DNA of 64,000 nucleotides from Pseudomonadota bacterium (lineage in GTDB: Bacteria > Desulfobacterota > Desulfobulbia > Desulfobulbales > Desulfocapsaceae): the NCBI GenBank assembly GCA_018817385.1, contig JAHIUA010000090.1:1-64000 (forward strand), in the 5' to 3' direction. The position numbers were made by a program, and so were the translations under genes. Positions 12,347 through 64,000 of the stretch are shown here, one piece after another. The notes beneath the pieces are model-generated. The model saw only the letters and a program-made list of their open reading frames with translations, made no database searches and was not told where the DNA came from. The stretch's first letter is position 1; each line of letters begins with the position of its first letter.

Positions 12347-13042
12347 GTGGATATTTTTGTTGATAGCCTCCACTCTGCCATTTTGCTTGTCTTTGCTCTC
12401 GACAGGGAAATGCTGGCCATTGTCATGGTTTCTTTGCAGGTGAGTTGCGTCTCAACCATTCTTGCTGGACTTGTCGGGGTGCCGACCGGATTTTTTATAG
12501 CTTTACGGCGGTTTCCCGGCAAGGCCATGCTCATTACCGTATTAAATACCTCATTGGCCTTGCCCACTGTGGTCATTGGTCTCTTTGTCTATGCCTTTAT
12601 TTCCCGGCGAGGCGTTTTTGGGCCCCTTGATCTGCTCTATACGCAAAAGGCCATTGTCATCGGTCAGGTGATCTTGATTATTCCCTTGGTAAGTGCCCTG
12701 ACAATTGCGGCCATCAGCCGAATCGATGAGCGTTATCGCCGTACAGCCATGACATTGGGGGCGAACCGGATGCAGACGGCCTGGGTCATTCTCTTCGAGG
12801 CCCGTTTCGGGATAACGGCAGCCATCGTGGCCGCATTCGGTAGGGTCATATCCGAGATCGGCATATCGATGATGCTTGGCGGTAATATCAAGGGGTTTAC
12901 CAGGACCATGACCACCGCCATGGCACTTGAATATGATAAAGGGGCTTTTTCCCTGGCCGTGGCTCTAGGTATTGTCTTGATGACCCTGAGTTTTGCTATG
13001 AATATTCTTTTTCACTTTTTTCAGGGTAAGTACCGAACATGA
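12347..13042 (+). CDS. tupB: Tungstate ABC transporter, permease
   Basis: A 231-residue inner-membrane permease with about five or six hydrophobic segments (e.g. MLAIVMVSLQVSCVSTILAG, VVIGLFVYAFI, AIVIGQVILIIPLVSALTIA). The ATPase-coupling loop is readable as YRRTAMTLGANRMQTAW followed by GRVISEIGISMMLGGN, typical of the TupB/ModB-like group. It starts with GTG after AAGGATGAG and its stop overlaps the tupC start by four bases (ATGA), so translation of the two is coupled. Confidence 0.92.
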   Translation: MDIFVDSLHSAILLVFALDREMLAIVMVSLQVSCVSTILAGLVGVPTGFFIALRRFPGKAMLITVLNTSLALPTVVIGLFVYAFISRRGVFGPLDLLYTQKAIVIGQVILIIPLVSALTIAAISRIDERYRRTAMTLGANRMQTAWVILFEARFGITAAIVAAFGRVISEIGISMMLGGNIKGFTRTMTTAMALEYDKGAFSLAVALGIVLMTLSFAMNILFHFFQGKYRT

Positions 13043-14064
13043 AAGTTTATTCAATTCATAAGTTAAACAAATCATGCAACGGTCGCTCTATTTTAGATAT
13101 TGATCATCTGGAGCTTGAGGCCGGACGAATCTATGGTCTCCTTGGCCCCAATGGTGCCGGGAAGACCACCCTTCTTAATATCCTTGGCTTTCTGGATCAA
13201 CCTACCTCAGGCCGTCTTGAATTTCTCGGTAAAGCTGTCCGCTTTCAGGAAAAGGAGTTGCTGCCTCTGCGTAAAGAGATTGTGGTTCTGGATCAATATC
13301 CGGTCCTTTTTACCACCTCTGTCTATAAAAATCTGGAGTTTGGCTTAAAGCTGAGAAAGGTGGCCAAGGCGGAAAGGGAGCGTCTCATTGATGAGGTCCT
13401 TGATCTGGTGGATATGGCTTCATTCAAGCATGCTCCTGCTTATAATCTTTCAGGTGGTGAAACCCAGCGGATAGCATTGGCTCGGGCATTGGCCCTTTCT
13501 CCCAAGGTCTTCCTCTGCGATGAGCCCACTGCCAGTGTTGATGTTGAAAATCAGGCAGTCATCGTCGCCTTACTGAAGCAGATCAATGAAAATAAAAACA
13601 TCACCATTGTCTTTACTACCCATGATCGTCTTCTTGCCGCAGGACTGGCTCATCATACCCTTGTCCTGAATGAAGGGCGTTTTGTCTCGACAAGCTACGA
13701 AAACACCTTTTCCTGCAGGATAGAACCAAAAGAGGATAAACAGATTTGGTGTCGTATCAGTGAAGACAGAGGGATTTTTCTTTCCTCCCCTAAGGTTGAA
13801 TCTCCTGCCTTGAAATCACGTCTCTTTATTGATTCCCAAAAAATTGATCTCCACACCGGTCAAACGATGCCGGGAGTTACCAACTGCTTGCCGGGTAAGG
13901 TCGTTCAGCTCATGGAAGAGTCCGGCAGAATTCGAGTTGTGGTGATGGTTGGATTTCTCCTGACTGTCATTCTCACAAGGGAAAAATATGATTCCCTCCG
14001 TCCGGCTATTGGTGATACGGTGGTCGTCTCTATCCCTCAGGATGCTGTCACCCTGTCCAATTGA
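13039..14064 (+). CDS. tupC: Tungstate ABC transporter, ATP-binding protein with C-terminal TOBE domain
   Basis: A 341-residue ATPase. Walker A is GPNGAGKT (36-43), the signature is LSGGETQRIALARAL, Walker B is FLCDEP, and the switch histidine lies in TTHD. Beyond residue ~235 a C-terminal extension ends in a TOBE-like oxyanion domain (NCLPGKVVQLMEESGRIRV ... DTVVVSIPQDAV), which in related transporters binds molybdate or tungstate and can shut transport off. It begins within the tupB stop (ATGA). No terminator was seen after it. Confidence 0.92.
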   Translation: MKVYSIHKLNKSCNGRSILDIDHLELEAGRIYGLLGPNGAGKTTLLNILGFLDQPTSGRLEFLGKAVRFQEKELLPLRKEIVVLDQYPVLFTTSVYKNLEFGLKLRKVAKAERERLIDEVLDLVDMASFKHAPAYNLSGGETQRIALARALALSPKVFLCDEPTASVDVENQAVIVALLKQINENKNITIVFTTHDRLLAAGLAHHTLVLNEGRFVSTSYENTFSCRIEPKEDKQIWCRISEDRGIFLSSPKVESPALKSRLFIDSQKIDLHTGQTMPGVTNCLPGKVVQLMEESGRIRVVVMVGFLLTVILTREKYDSLRPAIGDTVVVSIPQDAVTLSN

Positions 14065-14477
14065 GAACAGTGGCGTCGATGAGATATTTATAAAGAGACC
14101 TTTCAGGGTGATCAGGCTGGAGCGAGAAAAACGAAGGGGAGACAATGCCGTCGCTGCCCTCTTTGACCTGCCTGGACAAAAAACCATAAGTTTGTCAGCT
14201 GCATTTTCCCTCTTTTCCTCCGGACTGCAGACTCTTCACTGCCTCCCCTGCAGAGTCCCCGGCATGTTTCCCGCCATCCAGCATTTTCCAAGAAAATTTC
14301 CTGCAAAACCATTAAGTACAGCATTTCCTTCATGAGAGGAATAACGATTTCTCATCCCAACTGACAGCTTGTCTGGCAGTAGGTTGAGGCCTGTGGTTTT
14401 GATCTCCGGTACTTTCCAGATTCTCGTAACGACCTTGATGAAAATTGTAGAGCAGACGCTTTTATTTTCGCGTCACG
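14065..14477. other. Intergenic stretch between tupC and the adh2 regulatory region
   Basis: About 410 bases with no reading frame I would defend. A 115-codon frame at 13988-14335 overlaps the tupC end out of frame and has no recognisable content. No terminator or riboswitch was recognised. Confidence 0.4.
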
Positions 14478-14499
14478 GGGTCATCGGTCAACATGACCC
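14478..14499. promoter_or_regulatory. GGGTCAT-N8-ATGACCC inverted repeat, candidate enhancer of adh2
   Basis: GGGTCAT (14478-14484) and ATGACCC (14493-14499) are exact inverse arms, identical to the core arms of the palindrome at 6031-6063 but separated by eight bases, not one. The site is ~200-230 bases upstream of the start site expected from the sigma-54 promoter at 14690. Common half-sites suggest the same activator; the different spacing is a caution. Confidence 0.42.
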
Positions 14500-14689
14500 G
14501 TTTCGCCTACCATGGTGTTTCCTTTTGTCCCTTTCCCTCTAACCCCCTCTTCACAAAGGGTTTTTCTGATACTTTTGAGAACAATACTTGATTCCATAGT
14601 GGATAGCTTGGTTTTTGGCAGGGTCCTTTTGCCCCTTGGTATTTCTTAAAAATGCATGTAACATGCTGATCTTATACTAAGTATCATAC

Positions 14690-14705
14690 TGGCACGTCGT
14701 TTGCT
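14690..14705 (+). promoter_or_regulatory. Consensus sigma-54 promoter of alcohol dehydrogenase 2
   Basis: TGGCACG-TCGT-TTGCT fits the -24/-12 consensus TGGCACG-N4-TTGCW at every defined position. It ends 87 bases before the dehydrogenase ATG. A sigma-54 activator gene lies 4.7 kb upstream. Confidence 0.85.
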
Positions 14706-14792
14706 ACTATAGGTGTGCGCAGTTTTTGGATCCAAACTGAAAACTATGAAAGTGTAGTTCAACTTATTATCTCAAACGAAGGATGGTAAATT

Positions 14793-50797: not shown

Positions 50798-52886
50798 CCT
50801 AACCCAACTTTTTGCCAATCATTCCCAAACTCCTCTGGAATGCTATGTGTTACCTGAGACGCAAAACAAAAAACTCGTAACATTAGCGACATGACATTCC
50901 TTGGCCTTTTGTAGTGCCATAAAATACACTTAGTTCTTGACTTAGGGCGTTTTTTATGTCATTCTCCTTTCCATGTATATTCGAAGAACATCTATCAAGA
51001 GCAGGAAGGACGGATCACAATATTACACCTACCGGTTAGTCGAATCCCGACGTACAGAAAAGGGTGTCCGTCAATACACGTTGGTTAATCTTGGTGCCGA
51101 TTTTTCTTTGCCAAGAGAACAATGGCCAGATCTGACAAAACGGATTGAGGGAATCCTCAGCGGACAGCAGAGCCTGTTTGATATTGATTGCAATATTGAG
51201 AAGTTGGCTCAGAATTATGCGTCGAGGATTGTTGCTTCACATCAGGATGATAGTGATCCTGATGTGATCGACTACCGGGAAGTTGATCTTGATAGCCTTG
51301 AGATCAGCAGGTCGCGCAGTGTTGGCGGCGAGCATGCAATGCTTGAAGCATTACGGTTTTTGGGACTTGATACGATACTGGGAGGGCTTGGTTTTAATGG
51401 ACCGCAGACAGCTGCTGCCATTGGGACGATAATTGGCCGAGCCTGTGAACCTGGAAGTGAATTGGCAACCCATGAATGGCTTCAGGAACGATCAGGTCTT
51501 GGAGAATTGATTGGGTATGACTTTAATGATCTCAGCTTGTATGGCATGTACAAGGTATCCGATCAGTTACTCAAAAAGAAATCGGCTATAGAAAAGCACT
51601 TGTACGAACAAGAGCGGACTCTCTTTGGACTCCAGGAAACAATCACCCTGTACGATCTAACCAATACGTATTTTGAGGGTCAATGCAAGAGTAATGCCCT
51701 TGCAGCTCGTGGCCATTCTAAGGAGAAACGTACAGACTGTCCCCTGGTCACTCTTGGGCTGGTTCTAGACTCCAGTGGCTTCCCTCGGCGCAGTCACGTG
51801 TACGAGGGCAATGTAAGTGAACCAAAGACATTGTCGAAGATGCTTCATGGCCTTGAAAAAGGTGGAACACATACAAGCATGAAAGCTATGGTGGTCATGG
51901 ATGCAGGTATTGCAACCGAGGACAATATCACCTGGCTTACAGAGCATCAGTACCCATATCTTGTGGTGAGTAGAAAGAAGCATCGGGAATTTGATGAAGA
52001 CTCATCTGTTGTTGTCAAAAAGGATGACGAATGCACAGTCAGGGTGCAGAAGGTAATTGATGAAGCAACAAAGGAGACGCTCTTATATTGCCATTCTACA
52101 ATGCGGGAAAAGAAAGACCAAGCAATCGAGGATCGTTTTGTCGGCCATTTTGAAGAAACCCTGCAAAAGCTGAACAATGGTCTGCACCAAAAGAGATGTC
52201 TCAAGAAATATGACAAAGTTATGGAAAAAATCGGCCGCTTGAGACAGAAATATTCCAGGGTCTCCCGGCAGTTTACAATTTCCGTAGAAAAAGATGGTAC
52301 CAGCGCCAATGCTACAAAAATCACTTGGCAGCAGAAGGCTGCACCAAACACAACAGACACCTTCCCTGGAGTCTACTGCCTACGAACAAGTCAGACCGAC
52401 TGGGATGAAGTCACCCTATGGAAAACATATACGATGCTGACAGATCTTGAAGCTGTCTTTCGTTCTTTAAAATCTGAACTTGGGTTACGACCGATTCATC
52501 ATCAGATAGCCGACAGAGTTTCAGGGCACCTGTTTATTACTCTTTTAGCATATCATCTCGTCCATTCAGTACGATACAGATTGAAGCAAGTCAATATTCA
52601 CAGCAGTTGGTCTAGTTTAAGGAAACTCTTGTCAACACAGAATCGTGTAACAGTATCCATGCAGTGCAAGAAAGGTGGCACAGTCCATGTCAGGAAAAGC
52701 ACACGACCTGAACCAAAGCAGCAAGAGATATATTCAGCTCTGGGAATAAAGAGTCATCCTGGCCATACGATAAAAACGACGATATGAAACAAATTGATAG
52801 ATGTAGTGCCATAACGACATGGGGTAAAGGTGTAACGTGCAGTTATTGTTGGTGATTTTGTTTTCTAGTCACAAAGTTGGGCTAGG
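50798..52886 (+). mobile_element. IS1634-family insertion sequence
   Basis: About 2.09 kb with imperfect terminal inverted repeats: CCTAACCCAACTTTTTG on the left and, inverted, CCTAGCCCAACTTTGTG on the right (15 of 17 match). One transposase gene fills it. GGAGTC occurs at both flanks (50788-50793 and 52885-52890) and could be a 6-bp target duplication, but that would shift the ends a few bases and leave TTTA unexplained on the left. A 12-base direct repeat GTAGTGCCATAA lies inside each end (50911, 52803). Confidence 0.85.
50973..52787 (+). CDS. IS1634-family transposase
   Basis: A 604-residue DDE transposase of the IS4 superfamily. The N-terminal start MYIRRTSIKSRKDGSQYYTY is characteristic of IS1634 proteins. 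DDE-region landmarks are LYDLTNTYFEGQC, VVMDAGIATEDNI, and the YREK-type glutamate region LTDLEAVFRSLKSELGL. It is full length with no internal stop or frameshift, so the element may still be active. Confidence 0.93.
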   Translation: MYIRRTSIKSRKDGSQYYTYRLVESRRTEKGVRQYTLVNLGADFSLPREQWPDLTKRIEGILSGQQSLFDIDCNIEKLAQNYASRIVASHQDDSDPDVIDYREVDLDSLEISRSRSVGGEHAMLEALRFLGLDTILGGLGFNGPQTAAAIGTIIGRACEPGSELATHEWLQERSGLGELIGYDFNDLSLYGMYKVSDQLLKKKSAIEKHLYEQERTLFGLQETITLYDLTNTYFEGQCKSNALAARGHSKEKRTDCPLVTLGLVLDSSGFPRRSHVYEGNVSEPKTLSKMLHGLEKGGTHTSMKAMVVMDAGIATEDNITWLTEHQYPYLVVSRKKHREFDEDSSVVVKKDDECTVRVQKVIDEATKETLLYCHSTMREKKDQAIEDRFVGHFEETLQKLNNGLHQKRCLKKYDKVMEKIGRLRQKYSRVSRQFTISVEKDGTSANATKITWQQKAAPNTTDTFPGVYCLRTSQTDWDEVTLWKTYTMLTDLEAVFRSLKSELGLRPIHHQIADRVSGHLFITLLAYHLVHSVRYRLKQVNIHSSWSSLRKLLSTQNRVTVSMQCKKGGTVHVRKSTRPEPKQQEIYSALGIKSHPGHTIKTTI

Positions 52887-53119: not shown

Positions 53120-54058
53120 CTATGCCTTTCTACAGAGTCGAGCAAAAGCCCCTGGAATGGTGCCAGAAGACCAGAAGGCCCGCCCCTGCTTGTAATCCAC
53201 GAACCAGTAACCACCCGGCTTGCGTTGAGCAGCAACAAAAATAAACGGTTGTTCTTTGGAAAAACAGAGTTGAAGATGGATTCCCTTACTGTTCATTCCA
53301 GGCTCCATAAGGGACATGGCCTCTTCCATGGTCGGCATCCTCCAGTCATAATAACCGGCAAATCCTTCTCTGTTCATCTTTTCAATGTTACGCTGCATGG
53401 TGCGAACTGAATTAATATCCAGACCTCCTCGTTGCCACATAAGTCCGGTTTTTTGATCGACCACCGTCAGCCCATCACCTGTGTCCACCAATTGGTTCTC
53501 AAAAAAGCCCTCTGGATTATACTCACTATCAAAAAAATTCCATTTCCTGATGACTGCACCAATCTGGTCATCATTGATAACGGCGTGCTCTGTCGGCAAC
53601 CCTACCACTTTTCCATAAAATTTTGATTCCGCCAGGCCGACGAGGGGGGCACCCATATCCTCTACCTTTTTTTCGACAAACAAAGGGACAAGAGCAGAAC
53701 ATTCCTCAGATTCCAGAACATTGCCAATCAACCATTTCTTGATACCAGCATCAATGGCATAGCTTTTTTCAAAAAGGGATGAACTCCCCTGCTTTTTGAC
53801 GCAACCCTCTAACATGTTCTCCGGCGCCTTTATTTCCGCGAGAATTTTGGCATGCTTAACCCCACGTTCCATAAGACAGAGTTTTGGCTCTTTTCCCCAG
53901 TTGTCTATAAAAAAATAATAGATCCGTTCATCATTATTCCGTACCCTCTCCCTTCCGCCCCAGGACTCAAATGTTCCAAAGGTCATATCCGGTGTCATTT
54001 CCCAATCAATTTCCGGGGTGACATCACCACCGATTTTCAATTTTTGAAACATACCCAT
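53120..54058 (-). CDS. DUF1566 (Lcl C-terminal domain) protein
   Basis: A 312-residue protein without an evident signal peptide. The C-terminal ~115 residues match the DUF1566/Lcl fold: TVVDQKTGLMWQRGG, GYYDWRMPTMEEAMSL and GAFARLCRK. The N-terminal ~190 residues are not recognised. Many DUF1566 proteins in this phylum are numerous paralogs of unknown role. Divergent from glgX. Confidence 0.75.
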   Translation of the reverse strand: MGMFQKLKIGGDVTPEIDWEMTPDMTFGTFESWGGRERVRNNDERIYYFFIDNWGKEPKLCLMERGVKHAKILAEIKAPENMLEGCVKKQGSSSLFEKSYAIDAGIKKWLIGNVLESEECSALVPLFVEKKVEDMGAPLVGLAESKFYGKVVGLPTEHAVINDDQIGAVIRKWNFFDSEYNPEGFFENQLVDTGDGLTVVDQKTGLMWQRGGLDINSVRTMQRNIEKMNREGFAGYYDWRMPTMEEAMSLMEPGMNSKGIHLQLCFSKEQPFIFVAAQRKPGGYWFVDYKQGRAFWSSGTIPGAFARLCRKA

Positions 54059-54111
54059 TACTCACTCCTTTTCTTTGGTGGCAATACTACAAGGCCTGGT
54101 TGTTAAGTTCC

Positions 54112-54154
54112 TTATCGGTACCTAAGCTGTTCCTTGATACCAAGGTACTGATAA
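54112..54154. promoter_or_regulatory. Inverted repeat in the divergent DUF1566/glgX promoter region
   Basis: TTATCGGTACCT (54112-54123) and AGGTACTGATAA (54143-54154) are inverse arms with one mismatch and a 19-base spacer. Lying between divergent genes it could be an operator or a hairpin. Confidence 0.4.
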
Positions 54155-54255
54155 AGTATTTCTGCTTTTTTCTCTGCTGGTGTATCTTATTAAAAACAGT
54201 TCAGATATCTTTTCCATACTCACTCAATTATTTAATTATAATTACTATTATCATA

Positions 54256-56448
54256 ATGAGCAAGAAAAAATACTCCTTTTCTATTAAACGCGGTGACCCT
54301 CTGCCCGGCGGAGCAACCGCCCTCGATCGTGGGATCAACTTTGCTGTCTTTTCCCGGCATGCTACGGGGGTAACCCTGGTTATCGAAATAAAAGCCCCTG
54401 GCGAAGACATACCCAGCTGCCACGAACTGGAATTGGATCCAGCAGTGAACCGCACCGGTGATATCTGGCATATCTTCCTGGTCACCGAAGAACGGGAGAT
54501 CTGCTATGGCTACCGCTTCGACGGTCCAACTGATATCGAGAAACTTGGAGTGATCTATGATCGAAAACAAATCCTCATAGATCCACTCTCTCACGCCTTA
54601 AGCGGACGTAAATGGGGAGAAGATTTCCAGACTGGCCACAACCCCCTCTGCCATCTTATCAAACATGACTTTGACTGGCAGAATGACAGGCCGCTGAAGA
54701 CACCCATGGTGGACTCTGTTATCTACGAACTCCATGTCCGAGGGTTTACCCAGGCTGCAAACTCCGGGGTAAAGAATCCAGGAACCTACCTGGGAATTGT
54801 CGAAAAAATCCCTTACCTGAAAGAGCTCGGTGTCACTGCAGTAGAGCTCATGCCAATCACTGAATGGGATGAGAACGATAACGTCTTTCACGATCCGCTA
54901 AGCGGCATGAGGTTAAAAAATTACTGGGGTTATAATCCAGTCTCTTTTTTTGCCCTCAAATCAGGCTATGCCTCTGAGCCAGATAACCATGTCAACGAAT
55001 TCAAGTCGATGGTCCTCAGCCTGCACCAGGCCGGCATCGAAGTCATCCTCGACATGGTCTACAACCACACCGGCGAGGGCGATTACCAGGGAACCACCTC
55101 CAGTTTCCGTGGTATTGACAACCCCATCTACTACCTTCTCGACCAACACAGCCGTGAATATCTCAATTACTCCGGTTGCGGCAACACCTTCAACTGTAAC
55201 CATCCCGTGGTAAGGGAATTTATTCTCAACTCCCTCCGGTATTGGGTTATAGAAATGCATGTAGATGGTTTTCGTTTTGATCTCGCTTCTATCCTTGGCC
55301 GTGACCGTCAGGGACATGTCCTTGCCAACCCACCCATGATCGAGATGATTGCTCAGGACCCCATCCTTCGAGACACCAAAATTATTGCCGAAGCCTGGGA
55401 TGCGGCAGGATTGTACCAAGTGGGTAGTTTTTCCACTGATGCCCGCTGGGCCGAGTGGAACGGTAGATTCCGCGATGACATCCGAGCCTTTATGGCAGGT
55501 CACAAGGGGTCCATTGCCAACCTGGCCACCCGCATTGCCGGCAGCTCCGACCTCTATCAATCCAGCTCACGGACCCCCTGTAACTCAGTCAACTTCATCA
55601 CCAGTCACGATGGATTCACCCTCAATGACCTGGTCAGCTATAACGAAAAGCATAACAGCAGCAATGGAGAAGATAATCATGATGGTGATAATCACAATAT
55701 CAGCTGGAACAGTGGAATTGAAGGAAAGGAAGCCAATGCCGAAATCGAGGATTTTCGTTTTCGGCGCATGCGCAGTATGGCCCTGATTCTTATCCTCTCC
55801 CAAGGGGTGCCGATGATCACGGCTGGTGACGAATTCGGCCGCAGCCAGGATGGGAACAATAACTGCTGGTGTCAGGACAACAGGAGCAGTTGGCTGGACT
55901 GGGATCTGGCCCGCACCAATAAAGGGTTGCTCCGCTTTTTCAAAAAATGTCTCATCCTTCGTAAGAAACACCATATTTTTCGCCGTCACGATTTTTTCAG
56001 TTCACGGGAAAGTAGCCTGGGATCGAGGCAGGAAGCAGACATCAGCTGGCAATCTCTGCGCCCGGGACAAGAGGACTGGTCAGAAAATTGCCACACCTTG
56101 GCCTTTCTCCTTCGCGGCGAGAAAAAAGAAGGACAGAAAGATGATGACTTCTTTATCATGCTCAACGGCCACCGCAAAGAAAATGCCATTTTTGTTATTC
56201 CCCCCCCTTCAGACCCAAGACATTGTTGGAAACAAATCATTAACACTGCCCGGGCAGCGCCGTATGACTTCCCGCCCCCAAGCCGGGCAAGCAAGAAAAA
56301 AGGAGGTGACACCATCCTGGTCAAGAGCATGGCTGCCGTTGTCCTCCAGTCCGAGCAACCACCTGATACACTTCATATAAACGGTGCCTCAAAACAACTT
56401 ACCCTTGAGCCGAGCAGAAGGTTGGCCAAAAGAGAGCGGTATACCTGA
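54256..56448 (+). CDS. glgX: Glycogen debranching enzyme GlgX
   Basis: A 730-residue GH13 enzyme that removes alpha-1,6 branches from phosphorylase-limited glycogen. An N-terminal CBM48-like domain (GATALDRGINFAVFSRHATG) precedes the barrel, whose conserved regions are DMVYNHTGEG, GFRFDLASIL (nucleophile Asp), IAEAWDAAG (acid Glu) and FITSHDGFTLNDLVSY. A long upstream frame to 54100 encodes an improbable leader; ATG 54256 begins MSKKKYSF. With two phosphorylases in the window it supports glycogen breakdown as an energy reserve. Confidence 0.94.
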   Translation: MSKKKYSFSIKRGDPLPGGATALDRGINFAVFSRHATGVTLVIEIKAPGEDIPSCHELELDPAVNRTGDIWHIFLVTEEREICYGYRFDGPTDIEKLGVIYDRKQILIDPLSHALSGRKWGEDFQTGHNPLCHLIKHDFDWQNDRPLKTPMVDSVIYELHVRGFTQAANSGVKNPGTYLGIVEKIPYLKELGVTAVELMPITEWDENDNVFHDPLSGMRLKNYWGYNPVSFFALKSGYASEPDNHVNEFKSMVLSLHQAGIEVILDMVYNHTGEGDYQGTTSSFRGIDNPIYYLLDQHSREYLNYSGCGNTFNCNHPVVREFILNSLRYWVIEMHVDGFRFDLASILGRDRQGHVLANPPMIEMIAQDPILRDTKIIAEAWDAAGLYQVGSFSTDARWAEWNGRFRDDIRAFMAGHKGSIANLATRIAGSSDLYQSSSRTPCNSVNFITSHDGFTLNDLVSYNEKHNSSNGEDNHDGDNHNISWNSGIEGKEANAEIEDFRFRRMRSMALILILSQGVPMITAGDEFGRSQDGNNNCWCQDNRSSWLDWDLARTNKGLLRFFKKCLILRKKHHIFRRHDFFSSRESSLGSRQEADISWQSLRPGQEDWSENCHTLAFLLRGEKKEGQKDDDFFIMLNGHRKENAIFVIPPPSDPRHCWKQIINTARAAPYDFPPPSRASKKKGGDTILVKSMAAVVLQSEQPPDTLHINGASKQLTLEPSRRLAKRERYT

Positions 56449-56997
56449 TCGAGAATAGCAATTTTTCCCAGCACAGCAAAGGTACCACTCCGTAGGATAC
56501 CACATTCTGAAGAGGGCTTGTTGACTTACGCTGTAATCGAGTTTCGGTTCGGTAATTAAAACCTGACAACAAACCCTTCCGTGACCAAAACAACAATCCA
56601 TTTAAACAATAATACCATCACCTTGCCACCAGCATATGAGCCACCCAGAGGGTCCATGAAGACAATACATAAAGAAATCACTCGACAAGGACCAACATGA
56701 CAAAAAAAAGAAATAAGTCGACTTAAAAAACACGTCAACTATCCGTTATACTAAGATATAATACATGAATGACACCTGGAACAAGGAGAGTACAAAAAAA
56801 AATACCTGGTCATATCACAATTTCTCTTGTGAAATTGGCCAAAAACCTTTTATAGTACTGCATAGGATGTGATACATATCATATGTCAGACAGTGATATC
56901 TGCACCTGCGGAAGTGCTTTGGGGAGAAGACACAATTCATCGACCCTCAGGAATATCCCTGGCGACAGATGGACCGAAAAAAAACCGGGAGGGTAAA
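56449..56997. other. Intergenic region before the multihaem cytochrome
   Basis: About 550 bases. AT-rich boxes near 56750-56760 and 56845-56860 (TTTTATAGTACT) are candidate promoter elements. The transcribed part before the ribosome site (56869-56990) is long, so a regulatory leader is possible, but I could not recognise a c-di-GMP (GEMM) riboswitch core there. Confidence 0.4.
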
Positions 56998-58113
56998 ATG
57001 AAGACGAATAAAAAGTGGTATCAATATGGGGTATTGGCAAGTATGGGAGTTCTTATGCTTGCTGCACCCGCATCCGCAAAAGTAAACGGGCAGTGTGCCA
57101 TATGTCACACCATGCACAACAGCCAGGATGGAGCCCCAATGGCCATCGACGCTGCTGGTGCCCCACAGACCGCACCCAATGAGGTTCTGCTGCTCAGAGG
57201 CTGTGTCGCCTGTCATACCGGAACCAATGATGGGACCAATGTTATCCCCTATGTTTCCGACACCGCTGCACCTACCTACGGCGTCGATGGCACCACCGGC
57301 AACACCTTGGCCGGCGGTAGCTTTTACTGGGTTGCCAGTCAGACCCCAGGGTTAGATGGAGCAACCGCCGACTCGACCGGTCATAACGTGGCCACCGACA
57401 GCATGGCGGTCCAGGATGCAGTCCTCTTAAACAACCCTCCAGGAGCCACTGCCGCCCTCACCGCCCAGCTCAGATGTGCCGGCGTTAATGGTTGCCATGG
57501 TGACAGCGCTGCCAGCAGTGACTTTGCGGCTATCACCGGCACCCATCATGCCGATGATACGGTTATTGACGGCAGCACCACAGCCACCAGTTTCCGTTTT
57601 CTCCTTGGCATAGTAGGTCTGGAAGATTCCGATTGGGAATATATGCCAACAGCCACTGCCCATAATCAATACAAGGGTGTAGACAGAACCGCTGACACTC
57701 AGAATGACACCACCACCATTTCTTCCCTCTGTGCCCGCTGTCACAATGACTATCACAATGGAGCCGGAAATGTGGGTGGAACGAACCCCACCACTGGCGC
57801 CTTTGCCAGCCCTTGGGTCCGTCACCCGACAGATTTTGACATGGGCAACACCGGTGCTACTGCTGAATACCGTGATTACGGTGGAACAGGTGTCAATGCT
57901 TATGTAGTTTCTGCCCCCGTGGCCAGTAACACCATTGGCGTTGCTCCCCTGTCAAGCATTACCTTTACAGGCGACGATGCGATCGTGACCTGTATCTCCT
58001 GCCATCGCGCCCATGGTTCAGGGTATGCCGATCTCCTTCGTTGGGATTATTCAGCAGTCTCTGCCGGCGTTAGTGGTACAGGAGCATGTTTTGAGTGTCA
58101 TACCAGTAAATAA
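56998..58113 (+). CDS. Exported six-site c-type cytochrome, OmcS-like motif order
   Basis: A 371-residue protein with a signal peptide (residues 1-~27, ending APASA). Haem motifs: CAICH (33-37), CVACH (69-73), CAGVNGCH (160-167, a CX5CH spacing), CARCH (245-249), CISCH (332-336) and CFECH (364-368). Around them are CHTMHNS after the first haem, GHNV before the third, CHNDYHN...RHP at the fourth, CHRAHGSGYADLLRWDY at the fifth and CHTSK at the terminus. This order resembles the Geobacter nanowire cytochrome OmcS as I recall it, which also has six haems, one with an expanded spacing. GGAGGG precedes ATG 56998. A terminator follows, so it can be expressed above the downstream genes. Filament formation is inference. 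Confidence 0.9.
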   Translation: MKTNKKWYQYGVLASMGVLMLAAPASAKVNGQCAICHTMHNSQDGAPMAIDAAGAPQTAPNEVLLLRGCVACHTGTNDGTNVIPYVSDTAAPTYGVDGTTGNTLAGGSFYWVASQTPGLDGATADSTGHNVATDSMAVQDAVLLNNPPGATAALTAQLRCAGVNGCHGDSAASSDFAAITGTHHADDTVIDGSTTATSFRFLLGIVGLEDSDWEYMPTATAHNQYKGVDRTADTQNDTTTISSLCARCHNDYHNGAGNVGGTNPTTGAFASPWVRHPTDFDMGNTGATAEYRDYGGTGVNAYVVSAPVASNTIGVAPLSSITFTGDDAIVTCISCHRAHGSGYADLLRWDYSAVSAGVSGTGACFECHTSK

Positions 58114-58186: not shown

Positions 58187-58412
58187 GTAGTACGTCCCTG
58201 TGATCCACACCTGTAGCATGCAAATTTTCATTGGCTGGTGGCGCCCATCTTTGTGGCCACTCAACAATGATAATTTGCCATATTTATCGGTATGTTGTAT
58301 ACAGAGAATTGCAACTCAGGATGGCCGTTGTTCCAGAAAGAGTGGCCATGACAGCATCAGGTATTAACGTATATTTTGTGTTTTTTATTTTGTAAAGGCT
58401 AACCAGGCAATT
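58187..58412. other. Gap between the cytochrome terminator and the beta-barrel gene
   Basis: 226 bases, expected to hold the promoter of the downstream five-gene operon. AT-rich at 58370-58395. No known element recognised. Confidence 0.35.
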
Positions 58413-60506
58413 GTGAACAGTCTAGAGTTTCATAAACAGCTTCTTCTTCGCTCTTGGCTCCCCTGTTGCTGCCTGTTCGTACTTATCCCCACTCACGCCT
58501 GTGGAGAGGAAATTTCCCTTGACGCCTCCTGGCAGGCCAGCGCCAACCAAGTAGGTGAAGAGGAAGATGTCAATTCCTTTAACCAGCGCTACGGTGTGCA
58601 ATGGAATCCCAGGGTAACCCGGGCCATCTTTTTTGACTCCAACGTTAACTACTCCCGGAATGAGAGTACCGGCAGCATTATCCGTGAAACGCTTTCCCCA
58701 ACCGGCAGCCTGCAGGTTGAAAACGACATTTTCCTTGCCGAAGTCAGTGGTCTCATGAATAAGACCAAAAACTCCCAAAGCTATGATCTGGTCGACAGCA
58801 GTTGGGAAGCTATCCTCGCCTCCAACTGGGACTATCGCTTCTGGCCCAATCTGAGTATTAATGTAGGCCAAAACTGGTTTAGTGACAGCGAAGATGTGCA
58901 CATCACGGATAACAGCCTTAAATGGTCTGAATTTATTGCCAAGTGGGAGTTGGATAGTTTTGAGGCTTATTACAGCTATTACACCCAGCTCAGAGATGAC
59001 TTTGTTGAACAAAGCAATTACGATGAAAAAAAGCATTTCGGCAGGATTGATTACAGCCGGGGATTTTTTGCCAACCGCCTGAACCTTAGTTTTTCCGGGC
59101 AAGTAACCAATTCGACCACGGACATCAGCGCTGAAGGGGACACGGTCGCCATCAGAGTCGGACTCAGCCAGGCACTCGCTGGTATAGACCCCACTCCCCA
59201 ATCAGGGAATCTGCCCACAACCCCCGGCCTCATTGATGGAAACACCAATAGTTCTGTCTTCACCATCACCCCCCTAGAGGTTGCCAATCTCGCAATCAAG
59301 GCAGACTTCCAACCCATTAGCACCATCTACGTCTATACCAGTCAACTTGATCCTCTGCTCGCTGCTGAAACCAGTTCCCTGAGCTGGGATCTTTACTCCA
59401 GTACTGACGGTGTAAACTGGCAGAGAGAGGCAATCAACCCAGCCACTACCTACGATGAGGACAGATCCCGTTTCCAAGTCAGCATTGGTGGTCTGCAACG
59501 AATCTATCTGAAGCTGGTGGTAACAGGCTGGCCTCTGTCTCTGGCCATCCCGGTAACCGAAATTGAGGCCTTTAATAATCAAACCAGCTCCGAGGATACT
59601 TATGCGGAAACCCAGGAATATGACAGGACATTGACCGACCTGAATCTCCGCTACACCCCAAGCACAAATACCAGCCTCAGCTACTCCCTGGTCTGGGACG
59701 ACTCCGATTACACAATCGGCAACGATCGGACCCGTCTCTTTCAAACAGGAAATGTCAGATGGAGATACAATCAGTACCTGATCCCTTCCTTTACCGTTAA
59801 CAACACGACCACGGAAAACAGCGCCATTGCCGATAACAGTCAGCGCTCTTATGCCTTTACAGTACAGTCCATATTCCTCCCGACCCTTGAAACAAACGTT
59901 GGCATTACCAGAAACGAAAACTCGAACGATGACGTTCTGGAATCAACCAACGATAGCTTCCACTTCAATTTGATCGCGGCCCTGTATCCGAATCTGGACA
60001 CGACACTTGATATCAACACCATCTTTAACAGAAATGAAGAGGATGACAGTTCGAATGAAAACCTTGGCCTGCGCTGGACCCTCACTGCCCGCCTGCGCCC
60101 CAACCTGTTGGTTGACTTTATCGCAGAACATGGAAGTACCGAAGTCGGATTCACAGAGATTGCTGATACTGATCAATCTGGAGGCCGAACCACTCTCAAT
60201 GTAAACTGGCGTCCCTCTGATCTCCTGTCCATAATGGCCAACGCCTCCCAGGGCTATGGTGATGAGTGGTCCAACTATGAAAGTTATCGTTTAGATACCA
60301 ATTTTTCCCTGATTCGCACATCCAAGACCCAGTTTACGATTGGTCATAGAATCACCAGTACGGAAGACGACACCATTAACAGCCTTAACGCCAACTGGAG
60401 TTGGAACATAAGTGAATTTTTAACGATGCAGTCTATAGCCAATTACCTCATAACCCAAGAAGACAATGGCTGGTACGTAAATACCCGCCTCACAGCAAGG
60501 TTTTAG
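58413..60506 (+). CDS. Large outer-membrane beta-barrel protein with a discoidin-like insertion
   Basis: A 697-residue exported protein starting at GTG 58413. The signal peptide runs to about residue 31 (LFVLIPTHACGEE). Most of the chain is alternating amphipathic strands rich in aromatic residues and Asn/Ser, with repeats such as SLSYSLVWDDSDYTIG and NVNWRPSDLLSIMANASQGY, and the last residue is Phe, as in proteins inserted by BAM. Residues ~285-395 interrupt the barrel and look like a discoidin/F5-8C sandwich (IYVYTSQLDPLL, SLSWDLYSSTDGVNWQRE, LKLVVTGW, TEIEAFN). It is separated from the cytochrome by a terminator but faces the same way. A porin-like conduit for electrons or for cytochrome export is the leading guess; sequence is too diverged for a firm family. 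Confidence 0.78.
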   Translation: MNSLEFHKQLLLRSWLPCCCLFVLIPTHACGEEISLDASWQASANQVGEEEDVNSFNQRYGVQWNPRVTRAIFFDSNVNYSRNESTGSIIRETLSPTGSLQVENDIFLAEVSGLMNKTKNSQSYDLVDSSWEAILASNWDYRFWPNLSINVGQNWFSDSEDVHITDNSLKWSEFIAKWELDSFEAYYSYYTQLRDDFVEQSNYDEKKHFGRIDYSRGFFANRLNLSFSGQVTNSTTDISAEGDTVAIRVGLSQALAGIDPTPQSGNLPTTPGLIDGNTNSSVFTITPLEVANLAIKADFQPISTIYVYTSQLDPLLAAETSSLSWDLYSSTDGVNWQREAINPATTYDEDRSRFQVSIGGLQRIYLKLVVTGWPLSLAIPVTEIEAFNNQTSSEDTYAETQEYDRTLTDLNLRYTPSTNTSLSYSLVWDDSDYTIGNDRTRLFQTGNVRWRYNQYLIPSFTVNNTTTENSAIADNSQRSYAFTVQSIFLPTLETNVGITRNENSNDDVLESTNDSFHFNLIAALYPNLDTTLDINTIFNRNEEDDSSNENLGLRWTLTARLRPNLLVDFIAEHGSTEVGFTEIADTDQSGGRTTLNVNWRPSDLLSIMANASQGYGDEWSNYESYRLDTNFSLIRTSKTQFTIGHRITSTEDDTINSLNANWSWNISEFLTMQSIANYLITQEDNGWYVNTRLTARF

Positions 60507-60509
60507 CCC

Positions 60510-61088
60510 ATGAAAAAGATCACCTGCATGATTCTCCTGGCCTTATCCCTACTCTCAATCTATGGCTGCTCATCCAAAGATCCGTCCATCCAGACCTATC
60601 TCCGGGAAGGCACAGACCTGAGCTACGTCACCAGGGTTGCTATCCTCCCCTTTGAAAACAACACCCAGGATGAGTATGCCTCCAAGCGGATCCGTGACAT
60701 AACCGCCACCCAGATTATGGCCATGGGCCTCTTTGATGTTGCGGACAAGGGAGTTGTTGACAGTGCCCTGAGCGAGATGGGTATAGACCCCAGCACCCCT
60801 CTAGATGTTCCTCTGGTAAAACAACTCTCCCAGAGACTCAATGTTCAGAGTTTAATCATTGGCACGGTCAACAATATCGGAGAAAGTCGCCAGGGCTCGT
60901 TCAGCTACCCGGAAATATCGCTAACTCTCCAGCTCCTCGATGGCGAATCTTCGGTAATACTCTGGCGAACCAGTGATACCCTGAGTGGATATTCCCTTTC
61001 CGACCGCCTGTTTGGCCTCGACCCTATGGATTCCTTTCAAATCACTGTCGAATTGCTTGATAACATGCTTTCAACTATTCCAAAGTGA
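60510..61088 (+). CDS. CsgG/TolB-N-like outer-membrane lipoprotein
   Basis: A 192-residue lipoprotein with lipobox SIYGC (Cys 20). The body starts VTRVAILPFENNTQDEYASK, then ITATQIMAMGLFDVADKGVVDSALSEMGI and VQSLIIGTVNNIGES, the pattern of CsgG-like and GNA1162-like periplasmic lipoproteins. It begins four bases after the beta-barrel stop and its own stop overlaps the next start (GTGA). The two following genes carry the same kind of domain. Confidence 0.75.
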   Translation: MKKITCMILLALSLLSIYGCSSKDPSIQTYLREGTDLSYVTRVAILPFENNTQDEYASKRIRDITATQIMAMGLFDVADKGVVDSALSEMGIDPSTPLDVPLVKQLSQRLNVQSLIIGTVNNIGESRQGSFSYPEISLTLQLLDGESSVILWRTSDTLSGYSLSDRLFGLDPMDSFQITVELLDNMLSTIPK

Positions 61089-62626
61089 ACAGAATGGCAG
61101 GAAAACTCTCCACCTCTGAGGTACAGGTAAAAAGGCGGCCAACTGCAGCTTTTGCCGGATTGTACCTTAGCCTGCTCATAGCCTTATTCTTCTGGACTGG
61201 AATGGCAGTTGCCCAGTCCATTGCCTTTTTTCCCCTTCTCGACCTGAGCGAAGACCCCAATGGGATCAATAGCCCACTCACTGAAAAGGTCCGGCAGGAA
61301 CTGATTTTACGCGGAAAGACGCTTATTCCGGCTGAAGAAGTCATGCAATTTCTGGTTCGCAACCGAATCAGGAGTCTTGGAAAGCTAAGCCGTTACCAGA
61401 CATCTCTGGTTCACAAAGAGCTCGGCGCGGAGCTGGTGCTTCAGGGGACTGTATGTCAGATAGATAATGACACAACACCTCTCCTAAGCCTCAACCTCCA
61501 GCTCAGCAGGACCTCGGACGAACAGATTATCTGGGCCCATACAGAACAACTCTACTACTCAGACCTCACCAGCCTCCTTGGTTTGCAAGATCCCCATAAC
61601 CTGGCAGATCTCTACGAACCTTTTTTTAATTCCCTCTTTGCCACCCTGCCTGAACATCCAGATATTGGAGGGGAAGCAATGAATACCTTGAATATTGACA
61701 CAGTGATCATTTCCCCCAACTATCTCAGATCTGGAGAAAATGTAAGCTGCAAGATTAAGATGCGCAATATTTTGGATGACAAAGCAATCCAGCCCCAACT
61801 GATCGTTCGTTCCAACGGACAGGAGCACCCCCTCATTCTCGATGAAGAAGGCTATTACCTGCAAACATCCTGGCCGGTTGAAGAAAATGCCGGATCTTAT
61901 CCCATAACCTTGAAGGCCACCTGGCCATCAGGGATCACTCAAGAAGGAATTATCGGTTCCTACAATGTTGATGTTCAAGAACCTGGAGTGAAACTACACC
62001 TGATCGGCACCGAACGTGACGGACAAATCCTATTCAGCGACAAACTCATTATTATCCCCAAACTTGTGGAACCCGAGCCAATTGACCGTTGGGAAATTAT
62101 GGTCATCGACGAAGAGGAAGAAACAATAGTCATCATGGGAGCCGCCGGCAATATACCAAGACGTATCACCTGGCAGGGCAAGACCACGCTGGGTGGCATT
62201 GCAGCTCCCGGCATCTACTGGATCACCTTCAAGGTCTGGGACCGTGCTCAACGCGAATCCTACGCCGAAGCCGAAGTTCAATACAGACCTGAGCCGCCGC
62301 AGATCCTGGTGGAGGCAACCCATGAGGAGGACCGAGTAAGGGTTGGTCTCGACAACATTGTCAATACCCCACTCAACTTTTGGTGGGCCAAATTTTTTGC
62401 AGAAGACGGCCGTCTGCTTAAACTGGTCCAGGGAACTGAACTGCCTGCGACCATTGAACTTGACAACATTTCTGATCCGGAATACAAGATCCAGTGCCTG
62501 CTGACCGCCAGAGATATCCTCGGCAACCAGAGCCAACTCAATATTGCCAACCTGTTTAAACCTGTTGAGAGTGGAGTTGATGGAGAAGAAATCAGCATCG
62601 AAACCGAATGGGTAGAGGAGTTTTGA
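61085..62626 (+). CDS. Exported protein: CsgG/TolB-N-like domain plus beta-sandwich domains
   Basis: A 513-residue protein with an N-terminal signal/anchor (residues ~22-44, ending MAVAQS). Residues ~45-200 repeat the fold seen in its neighbours (IAFFPLLDLSEDPNG, KTLIPAEEVMQFLVRNRI, AELVLQGTVCQIDND). Beyond that are two or three Ig-like sandwiches (e.g. ISPNYLRSGENVSCKIKMRN; GIAAPGIYWITFKVWDRAQR, FlgD-like in style). GTG 61085 overlaps the previous stop; ATG 61094 is the alternative. No lipobox cysteine is seen. Probably a periplasmic or surface scaffold of the same assembly. Confidence 0.65.
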   Translation: MNRMAGKLSTSEVQVKRRPTAAFAGLYLSLLIALFFWTGMAVAQSIAFFPLLDLSEDPNGINSPLTEKVRQELILRGKTLIPAEEVMQFLVRNRIRSLGKLSRYQTSLVHKELGAELVLQGTVCQIDNDTTPLLSLNLQLSRTSDEQIIWAHTEQLYYSDLTSLLGLQDPHNLADLYEPFFNSLFATLPEHPDIGGEAMNTLNIDTVIISPNYLRSGENVSCKIKMRNILDDKAIQPQLIVRSNGQEHPLILDEEGYYLQTSWPVEENAGSYPITLKATWPSGITQEGIIGSYNVDVQEPGVKLHLIGTERDGQILFSDKLIIIPKLVEPEPIDRWEIMVIDEEEETIVIMGAAGNIPRRITWQGKTTLGGIAAPGIYWITFKVWDRAQRESYAEAEVQYRPEPPQILVEATHEEDRVRVGLDNIVNTPLNFWWAKFFAEDGRLLKLVQGTELPATIELDNISDPEYKIQCLLTARDILGNQSQLNIANLFKPVESGVDGEEISIETEWVEEF

Positions 62627-62629
62627 ACA

Positions 62630-63226
62630 GTGAAGTACTGGGTCCGTTTTTTTCTTATTCTCTTTCTTTTTCTTCTTGCCGGCTGTGGTGGCAAAGCTGT
62701 GCCAATCATCCAAAAGCTGGCACCTTTACCCGCACAGGGGAGCTGTAAGATTGCCGTCCTCCCTTTCCTCAACAAGATTTCCTATCCTCAGGGCGGCCCA
62801 ATTGTCAACAAAATCTTCCTCTCTGAACTCGTGGCCACCGGCCGCTTTCAAGTATTCCCCGAAGGGGACATCGACTCGATCTATCAACAGCTTCTCATCT
62901 ACCCCCTTGAACAGCCCACCCGGGAACAACTGGCAATGATCGGAGGCCGAATCAATCCAGACCTCTTTATCGGTGGAACCATATTAAAGATGGATGAGAG
63001 AAGACAGGGTGACTATGTCCATACCGAAATGACCCTTATTCTCCATCTCTACGATGGTAAATCAGGGAAACTCCTCTGGTCCACTTACCACCATCGCCTC
63101 GGCAGTGAGTATCAGCAGGTCATGCATCTTGGCAGAATAAATTCCATCTCTGGTCTGGCCCGTCGCATGTCTCAGGAAATTATAGCCGACTGGCTTGAAC
63201 AAGGAATGATCCCATGTACCGAATAA
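62630..63226 (+). CDS. CsgG/TolB-N-like lipoprotein, second
   Basis: A 198-residue lipoprotein, lipobox LLAGC (Cys 19), GTG start after GAGGAG. IAVLPFLNKISYPQGGPIV, ATGRFQVFPEGDIDSIYQQL and PDLFIGGTILKMDERRQGD parallel the 192-residue protein at 60510 motif for motif, so these are distant paralogs. Its stop lies inside the next gene (overlap 63214-63226), so the operon continues. Confidence 0.72.
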   Translation: MKYWVRFFLILFLFLLAGCGGKAVPIIQKLAPLPAQGSCKIAVLPFLNKISYPQGGPIVNKIFLSELVATGRFQVFPEGDIDSIYQQLLIYPLEQPTREQLAMIGGRINPDLFIGGTILKMDERRQGDYVHTEMTLILHLYDGKSGKLLWSTYHHRLGSEYQQVMHLGRINSISGLARRMSQEIIADWLEQGMIPCTE

Positions 63227-64000
63227 GTAAAATCCTCTTTTTGAGTTTTGTGCTCTCACTCTCCGCCGTCCTCTCCCTTGAGGCGGGCTGGCTTCCCTGG
63301 AGTTCCCAGACCTTTGTCACCATAGGCGGTGAAGACTACAGTAGTGATGATTTTAAATCCTGGTGGGAAAACTGGCAGGAAAAAGGCATGAAGGTACCCG
63401 AAAGTCCTGATGTTTTTATAGACTGGATACTTCTCTTTAAAGAAGCGGAACGGATGAAACTCTACGAGTCGCCAACGTACCGTAAGAAGGCACTCACCTT
63501 TCTCAAGGCCAGGACCCTGATGTACCTGAAGAGTGAAGAAATTGACCAAAAGATTCAAATCAGTGACGATGACCTCTGGAAGCAGTATCTGAAGAGCCAT
63601 GCACCTCAATATCAGGTCAATATATTCTTTTTCAAGAAAGAGGAGTCAGCGCAGGCATTCGTCGACAAACTTGGCCAGGAATCCCTCAGCGATGCAGATT
63701 TCACCGTCAAACATGGGAGAGAGGATGGGTACTTCTCCCAGCGCAGCGAATGGTATCGCCCCACCGGCATTAATCCCGGATGGCTCCCTATCCTCCATGA
63801 ATTGGAAAAGGGTAAAATGAGCGCACCGGTTCCCTATAAAGAGGACTTTGTCGTCTTGAGACTGCAAGATATTGTCGAGGGGAGCAGGGAAGACTTCGAG
63901 GTGGTGAAAACCCAGGTACGGGAAAAAGTCTGGAAAGATGAGGAAAACAGACTGACTGTTGACCTGCTCAACAGGCTCCGCCAACAGTACCATGTAAAGA
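63214..64000 (+). CDS. Exported parvulin/SurA-like peptidyl-prolyl isomerase, 3' truncated by window end
   Basis: An open frame from ATG 63214 to the last base, 262 codons. A signal peptide covers residues ~1-24 (ILFLSFVLSLSAVLSLEAGW). Helical N-terminal residues ~35-130 resemble the SurA/PrsA chaperone part; residues ~130-230 resemble a parvulin domain (QYQVNIFFFKKEESAQAFV, FTVKHGREDGYFSQRSEWY, GKMSAPVPYKEDFVVLRLQD). AAGGA precedes the ATG, which overlaps the upstream stop. A periplasmic foldase in this operon fits assembly of the beta-barrel or cytochrome. The gene continues beyond the window. Confidence 0.75.
   Translation, partial: MYRISKILFLSFVLSLSAVLSLEAGWLPWSSQTFVTIGGEDYSSDDFKSWWENWQEKGMKVPESPDVFIDWILLFKEAERMKLYESPTYRKKALTFLKARTLMYLKSEEIDQKIQISDDDLWKQYLKSHAPQYQVNIFFFKKEESAQAFVDKLGQESLSDADFTVKHGREDGYFSQRSEWYRPTGINPGWLPILHELEKGKMSAPVPYKEDFVVLRLQDIVEGSREDFEVVKTQVREKVWKDEENRLTVDLLNRLRQQYHVK

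Follow-up and report, generated by a model that had tools for sequence, protein, structure and literature searches.

Three PelC/LpoB-like genes beside a candidate outer-membrane barrel in the Desulfobulbales version of an OmcS-linked cytochrome cluster

The question raised by the locus

What could three consecutive genes carrying one kind of domain do between a candidate outer-membrane barrel and a folding factor, next to a gene for an OmcS-like cytochrome? The question is raised by a stretch of 64,000 nucleotides (referred to here as the window) from a Desulfobulbales genome of 5.38 Mb, in which it forms part of the contig C44 of 105,560 bases. The three genes are designated Lpo1, Lpo2 and Lpo3, working names coined in this analysis. 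Profile comparisons indicate that they carry paralogous copies of one domain of the PelC/LpoB/CsgG superfamily. Their operon is the Desulfobulbales version, split and bearing immunoglobulin (Ig)-like domains, of a cluster already described as oetABI (Murali 2023, PMC10553843) and, in Geobacter, as a block adjacent to OmcS (2026 mBio, PMC12977616). It is not a new system, and the statement of the initial annotation that no described system has this composition does not hold. The genes concerned are the following:

56869..58113, plus strand: OmcS-like cytochrome with five CxxCH motifs; the true start is likely at about 56998 (MKTNKKW...)
58413..60506, plus strand: outer-membrane beta-barrel candidate of 697 residues, from its orthologs, amphipathic stretches and C-terminal Phe
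59220..59627, plus strand: discoidin-like (F5/8 type C) insertion in the barrel candidate, from Pfam matches of orthologs and a GH92 structure match
60510..61088, plus strand: Lpo1, PelC-like lipoprotein of 192 residues, from profile matches to solved structures and the lipobox Cys
61085..62626, plus strand: Lpo2, 513 residues, LpoB/PelC-like domain followed by Ig-like sandwiches and a C-terminal W-x3-F; signal peptide without lipobox
62630..63226, plus strand: Lpo3, PelC-like lipoprotein of 198 residues, from the profile match to PelC 9h80
63214..64836, plus strand, running beyond the window end at 64000: parvulin-type peptidyl-prolyl isomerase (PPIase) of 540 residues, from Rotamase_2

Three copies of one domain

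The initial annotation had read the three genes as diverged copies of one domain, two of them on lipoproteins, and both points are borne out. Ortholog alignments compared with hhalign gave E values of 4e-24 for Lpo1 against Lpo3, 4e-11 for Lpo1 against Lpo2 and 4e-12 for Lpo2 against Lpo3; the domains are homologous. A tree built from 111 domains of 39 chosen loci separates the copies into clades for Lpo1 (40/40), Lpo2 (35/35) and Lpo3 (35/36), with support of 0.88, 0.98 and 0.88, respectively; the copies would thus seem to predate their spread. Every row of the ortholog alignments of Lpo1 (21/21) and Lpo3 (20/20) keeps the lipobox Cys, and the lipobox pattern fits 21/21 Lpo1, 17/20 Lpo3 and 2/19 Lpo2 proteins. 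The 20 Lpo3 orthologs also share an invariant Cys196 besides the lipobox residue Cys19, and a nearly invariant Cys39; Cys39 and Cys196 perhaps form a disulfide. Median isoelectric points are 5.2 for Lpo1, 5.0 for Lpo2 and 8.2 for Lpo3, values too mixed for domain charge to serve as a functional clue, which was dropped.

Against all solved chains, the best match of the Lpo3 profile is 9h80, labelled PelC of the PelBC complex (E 2.4e-6); FlgT structures match this profile weakly (E 0.05). The Lpo1 profile matches 5t11 (E 2.5e-5), 5t10 (4.1e-5) and 5t0z (0.0016), then 9h80 (0.0035). The first three, which we take to be PelC structures, are deposited as uncharacterized protein or putative lipoprotein, and the name PelC is absent from their listing. 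The Lpo2 domain matches LpoB 4q6z (E 5.9e-4) ahead of 5t0z (0.16). Among the solved matches listed at E up to 10, no CsgG-named chain was found for any of the three, and no LpoB structure for Lpo1 or Lpo3. By solved structures, Lpo1 and Lpo3 thus appear nearer to PelC, and Lpo2 nearer to LpoB, than to CsgG. The CsgG/TolB-N-like label first given to the trio stands at the superfamily level, Pfam CsgG matching 2/21 Lpo1 orthologs (best 5.4e-9) and TolB_N 3/20 Lpo3 orthologs (best 3.5e-4); as to the closest solved relatives, it gives way to PelC and LpoB. Pfam GNA1162 is found in 10/21 Lpo1 members, and the one match of a plasmid search with Lpo1, a distant one (23% identity, E 4e-7), also belongs to the GNA1162 family. 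A PelC kinship of these proteins was not found in the searchable open-access literature, although Shen et al. 2025 may state it.

The Ig-like extension annotated on Lpo2 is seen in its family, with FlgD_ig in 15/19 and Big_13 in 3/19 members; the window protein has neither at E up to 0.01.

Conservation of the gene order

Three sets of loci were gathered in different ways and partly overlap. Set 1 comes from a search of 96 related genomes with Lpo2; 27 of these, among them the genome of the window, gave a match, and the set holds 27 loci from the other genomes. Set 2 (52 loci) comes from a pattern scan with Lpo1 across 84,980 species genomes and shares genomes with set 1. Set 3 (35 loci) was obtained by searching 395 genomes of the phylum for the PPIase and is without the set-1 loci, G466:C104, G466:C234 (an earlier locus of 3.5 kb), G273 and weaker matches, mostly to the PPIase part only.

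All three Lpo domains are present at 26 of the 27 loci of set 1, together with the barrel (27), the PPIase (25) and a cytochrome of at least four haems (25). The corresponding counts for the 52 loci of set 2 are 48, 49, 47 and 47. The loci without cytochrome are contigs of 5.0 and 6.2 kb in set 1 and five contigs of 3.3-7.3 kb in set 2. In set 3, at least one Lpo is present at 34 of the 35 loci, the barrel at 27 and a cytochrome at all 35; all three Lpo labels occur at 22, partly because a fused protein bears one label and some contigs are cut. Genes for a 26-haem and a 16-haem cytochrome are found at nearly all loci whose contig is long enough. The same order of genes turns up repeatedly across the phylum as sampled; the contigs of set 2 are titled, among others, Desulfobulbaceae, Desulfocapsa and Desulfurivibrio. 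In the window's own genus the cluster is patchy, with Lpo2 in 6/20 genomes. An occurrence of the operon mainly without cytochromes, envisaged with the initial annotation, is not what was found: 47 of the 52 loci found with Lpo1 hold one of at least four haems.

The domains of Lpo2 and Lpo3 form one tandem protein at seven loci (L162, L163, L164, L166, L167, L171 and L176). Weaker Lpo1-like matches were examined at 20 places in 19 genomes, a subset of such matches, and 9 of the 20 (L213-L221) have the tandem protein as well; L211 keeps the domains apart. The fusion is taken to tie both domains to one complex, and such fusions were not found described in the searchable open-access literature. 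At another of these weaker places, L222:9992-12081 (minus strand), the Lpo1-like gene adjoins a barrel-type frame of 485 residues, and no cytochrome open reading frame (ORF) lies in 20 kb. Lpo2 ORFs end in W-x3-F in 26/28, 47/53 and 21/32 cases in sets 1, 2 and 3, respectively, cut and fused ORFs included. This end, at 62609-62623 in the window, comes after a variable acidic tail and looks like a docking motif.

A sister cluster was found at L225:5426-13044 (minus strand) and L226:7800-15351 (plus strand). It has in a row a barrel, one PelC-like lipoprotein, a PPIase, an NHL propeller, a thioredoxin-like protein and a 10-haem cytochrome. The L225 lipoprotein aligns to Lpo1 at E 2.5e-19 and its barrel to the barrel profile at 91.5% probability, which supports barrel plus PelC-like lipoprotein as a module.

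The barrel candidate and the rest of the operon

The 697-residue protein would be an outer-membrane barrel, judging from the conservation of its orthologs, its 35 amphipathic stretches (a crude, uncontrolled count that includes the insertion) and its C-terminal Phe. It has no Pfam match of its own at E up to 1; OMP_b-brl is found in 1/23 of its orthologs, and the 6 chains listed for it at E up to 10 point to no kinship with a solved porin. Porin_4 has a match, below the cut-off, in the sister cluster's barrel alone. By genomic position the candidate would correspond to OetI. The insertion is supported by F5/8 type C matches in 6/23 orthologs (best 2.6e-4) and by a match of the insertion profile to the GH92 mannosidase structure 7nsn (E 5.7e-5), the window's copy having no match at E up to 1. 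The discoidin-like insertion that the initial annotation had described is thus seen in orthologs and not in Pfam matches of the window protein, and the large barrel that carries it stays a candidate. The folding factor placed behind the trio is indeed a parvulin (Rotamase_2, E 4.7e-27), and the tight packing is confirmed: gaps of 3 bp separate the barrel gene from Lpo1 and Lpo2 from Lpo3, while Lpo1 and Lpo2 overlap by 4 bp and Lpo3 and the PPIase gene by 13 bp.

The window edge splits the operon, and genes on the same strand continue beyond the PPIase (region L002, PPIase at L002:3214-4836). The next gene encodes a lipoprotein of 675 residues with 26 CxxCH motifs; it overlaps by one base a gene for a 393-residue protein with 16. 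Further on lie genes for an NHL propeller, a second 5-haem cytochrome, an 8-haem cytochrome, a YNCE-type propeller lipoprotein, a 10-haem cytochrome and another NHL protein. Promoter-like sites (13 against 8.0 expected) and terminator-like sites (3 against 7.8 expected) are uninformative, except for a promoter-like site at 58348-58375, ahead of the barrel gene.

Upstream of the cytochrome, the window also contains a glycogen-debranching-type enzyme at 54100-56448 with alpha-amylase, CBM48 and isoamylase C-terminal Pfam matches, an Lcl_C-domain protein at 53120-54058 (minus strand, E 3.2e-16) and a 604-residue ORF at 50973-52787. The latter looks like an IS1634-type transposase.

The cytochromes

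The operon has two copies of the OmcS-like cytochrome, one of them directly ahead of the barrel. A profile built from 20 cluster members of this 5-haem family matches OmcS (6ef8/6nef) along most of its length (E 2.8e-28). A link to published expression data is given by Desulfurivibrio alkaliphilus, whose OmcS homologue DA_402 is induced more than 100-fold on ferrihydrite (PMC12545173). Both published DA_402 primers match genome G062 exactly, at L047:15126-15209, inside an OmcS-like gene, and the published recA primer matches this genome too. The barrel gene (12558-14774, minus strand) follows it immediately, so that the OmcS-like gene has the same position as in the window. The OmcS-like DA_756 and DA_765 were also induced (PMC12545173). 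G062 holds a second cluster (L051) with OmcS-like genes at both ends and eight genes between them; by counting only, the two end genes would fit DA_756 and DA_765.

A single 42-haem ORF unites the 26-haem and 16-haem cytochromes at L054:3641-6778 (apparently the same contig as L106), at L056:12353-15388 and in L227 from 3774. Haems 26 and 27 are 21, 22 and 23 residues apart in these fusions, within the range of the other steps (15 to 31), so that no linker joins the two parts. The fusion is therefore read as a sign that the separate 26-haem and 16-haem proteins dock directly, end to end. Linker-free 42-haem fusions were not found described in the searchable open-access literature.

One cluster in two literatures

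A prolyl isomerase OscH, a channel-like OscEFG and a propeller-like OscD were reportedly described for Geobacter sulfurreducens by Shen et al. in 2025. In the 2026 mBio study, the eight genes GSU2500-2493 are linked to the maturation and secretion of OmcS nanowires, with reference to Shen et al., and GSU2495 is the 26-haem cytochrome (PMC12977616). The order at L214 and L216, distant relatives that we take to be Desulfuromonadia (propeller, barrel, Lpo1, fused Lpo2-3, PPIase, 26-haem cytochrome, 16-haem cytochrome, propeller), likewise comprises eight genes with the 26-haem cytochrome sixth. On the other side, a core of propeller, 16-haem cytochrome, 26-haem cytochrome and PPIase, present twice in Desulfurivibrio alkaliphilus, was reported by Skennerton 2017 (PMC5539420). 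The PPIase, 26-haem, 16-haem and NHL propeller genes of L002 stand in the order of that core, and the two cluster copies of G062 agree with the published number for Desulfurivibrio. The cluster was named OetABI in the sulfate reducers that are partners of anaerobic methanotrophic archaea, its barrel being called a porin with an electron-conduit role (Murali 2023, PMC10553843). GSU2495, termed periplasmic, increases on Fe(III) oxide when omcB is mutated (PMC10599522), and so does the OetI conduit (PMC10553843). From the shared gene order, with the same place for the 26-haem gene, and the shared response to the omcB mutation, we infer that OetABI and GSU2500-2493 are the same genes. Two literatures, one on an electron conduit and one on wire secretion, thereby seem to treat the same genes under different functions.

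What the trio may do

How cytochrome nanowires exit the cell and are anchored is unresolved according to a 2025 review (PMC12307469). We hold with moderate confidence that the trio forms a heteromeric collar of PelC type, seated on a barrel by which OmcS-type wires are exported or anchored. The observed kinship, gene order, conservation and gene fusions are the starting point, together with the OmcS-like gene ahead of the barrel and the matching Geobacter block; the ring with its stoichiometry, the passage of protein through the barrel and the wiring are what we infer. OmcS-like subunits would enter the periplasm and gain their haems there, the parvulin aiding their folding. The lipid-anchored Lpo1 and Lpo3, together with Lpo2, would form a mixed PelC-like ring below the inner mouth of the barrel, a mixed ring being suggested by three paralogs beside one barrel. 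The ring would collect folded subunits or the filament base and pass them to the barrel, which would take the wire to the surface. Electrons would be fed to this site by the 26-haem lipoprotein and by the 16-haem cytochrome docked to its end. The export or anchoring machine for the adjacent cytochrome proposed in the initial annotation is in part supported, and it agrees with published work that connects the Geobacter block with the secretion of OmcS. The PelC kinship thus gives the lipoproteins of the cluster a testable role, that of a collar on an export barrel.

Several points weigh against the collar. The matches to PelC are weak, at 20-30 bits, Lpo2 is nearer to LpoB than to PelC, and Pfam CsgG, found in two Lpo1 orthologs (best 5.4e-9), there surpasses LpoB, whose best value is 1.8e-8; the fold alone is no proof of a ring. 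Trp149 of PelC, a residue of the membrane face that a stable PelBC complex needs (PMC12141448), is replaced in the Lpo1 alignment by Tyr in the window and by D, E or Y in other rows, and the Lpo3-PelC alignment ends one residue short of it. Right after this place a hydrophobic loop seems to follow, LFG in Lpo1 and LLG in Lpo2. In favour of the collar, a Lpo1 match (E 1e-6) occurs, among the 395 genomes, in 31 of the 34 with a close OmcS-like match (1e-30) against 120 overall, from lists compared by eye; this co-occurrence is biased, however, the OmcS-like profile having been built from cluster members, and G117, G144 and G253 have the OmcS-like cytochrome without Lpo1. A cytochrome ORF is missing from 6 of the 20 weaker Lpo1-like places, of which L212, L224 and L228 are cut by contig ends and L222, L229 and L230 are uncut. 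Conversely, L145 of set 3 has the PPIase and a 7-haem cytochrome without any Lpo. Finally, the published view of the cluster has the barrel as an electron-conduit porin, not as an exporter (PMC10553843), and the 26-haem and 16-haem genes are conserved to the same degree as the PelC-like ones, a constancy that is just as compatible with a conduit.

That conduit is the strongest alternative to the collar, a possible reading to which we give clearly less credence. The barrel would sheathe the 16-haem cytochrome and electrons would pass to the 26-haem lipoprotein at the surface; the PelC-like trio would only assemble or steady the conduit, and wires would be exported elsewhere. This equals the published OetABI model (PMC10553843). 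It is favoured by the near-constant presence of both cytochrome genes and by the distribution of lipobox-like sites, found in 68/85 of the 26-haem and 4/79 of the 16-haem proteins (some genomes counted twice). A downstream cluster at C44 78358-88056 (L231, minus strand) is also in its favour; it encodes cytochromes of 14 and 18 haems, an NHL protein, a cytochrome b561-like membrane protein and 3-, 6- and 7-haem proteins, and is perhaps the inner-membrane end of the same electron chain. However, a 42-haem single chain in three genomes fits poorly with two compartments, GSU2495 is called periplasmic (PMC10599522), and the accessible OetABI account assigns no role to PelC-like proteins (PMC10553843).

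Collar and conduit may also be two sides of one machine that both builds and feeds the nanowire, a proposal we make tentatively and with a little less conviction than the conduit. An alternating PelC-like ring would extrude OmcS-type wires while a 42-haem wire crosses the periplasm into the filament base, the OetABI conduit being the OmcS secretion cluster. The linker-free 42-haem fusions make such a continuous wire of two large cytochromes testable.

It appears improbable that the trio acts in the manner of LpoB, stimulating peptidoglycan synthases or opening the wall locally for a large trans-envelope complex. Pfam LpoB matches 20/21 Lpo1 (best 1.8e-8), 9/20 Lpo3 and 2/19 Lpo2 members at E up to 0.01, the three window proteins scoring 20.2, 17.0 and 20.3 bits, under the cut-off of 22.3, and among solved structures the Lpo2 domain matches LpoB best. 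The solved matches of Lpo1 and Lpo3 include no LpoB structure, however, as reported above, and the neighbours that bear labels code for cytochromes, propellers and PPIases, no search having been aimed at wall genes. Least probable of all, by a small step, is a CsgG-like pore made by Lpo1-3 themselves that would secrete the cytochrome, the barrel not being the export channel: the CsgG matches of the two Lpo1 members speak for it, but the three window proteins have no Pfam CsgG match at E up to 1, no CsgG-named chain is among the solved matches listed, the genome has one CsgG gene (at E 0.001, on a different contig), whose product reaches 12% probability against the Lpo1 profile and contains an additional glycine-rich stretch that seems, from the alignment, to be absent from Lpo1, and the barrel candidate is present at 27/27, 49/52 and 27/35 loci of the three sets.

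Comparison with known systems

In PelBC, twelve PelC lipoproteins lie on the periplasmic side of a barrel, and PelB, which has TPR repeats, exports a sugar polymer (PMC12141448). The window operon likewise sets lipoproteins of this fold beside an outer-membrane barrel, here a candidate. The PelC-type domain is on a lipoprotein in Lpo1 and Lpo3, whereas Lpo2 has the domain without a lipobox. PelBC has one PelC gene and the window operon three PelC-like genes, and Trp149 is unconserved in Lpo1. The context is not that of a pel operon, the neighbours being by Pfam cytochromes, propellers and a PPIase, while the rest of the genome was left without a Pel search. FlgT of the flagellar ring and GNA1162 give weak matches only, and no flagellar gene is among the Pfam-scanned neighbours in the operon.

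The window operon also resembles the two published clusters. Like the Geobacter block, it is found with OmcS-like cytochromes and has a 26-haem member (PMC12977616). Its OmcS-like genes encode five CxxCH motifs where OmcS has six, and the domains of Lpo2 and Lpo3, fused at L214 and L216, are in separate genes, Lpo2 with Ig-like domains. The accessible OetABI descriptions name no PelC-like protein (PMC10553843; PMC5539420), whereas the window has three. OetABI and the window operon share the core of PPIase, 26-haem cytochrome, 16-haem cytochrome and propeller (six-bladed in OetABI) and the OmcS-like neighbours, and the barrel of OetABI has its counterpart in the barrel candidate.

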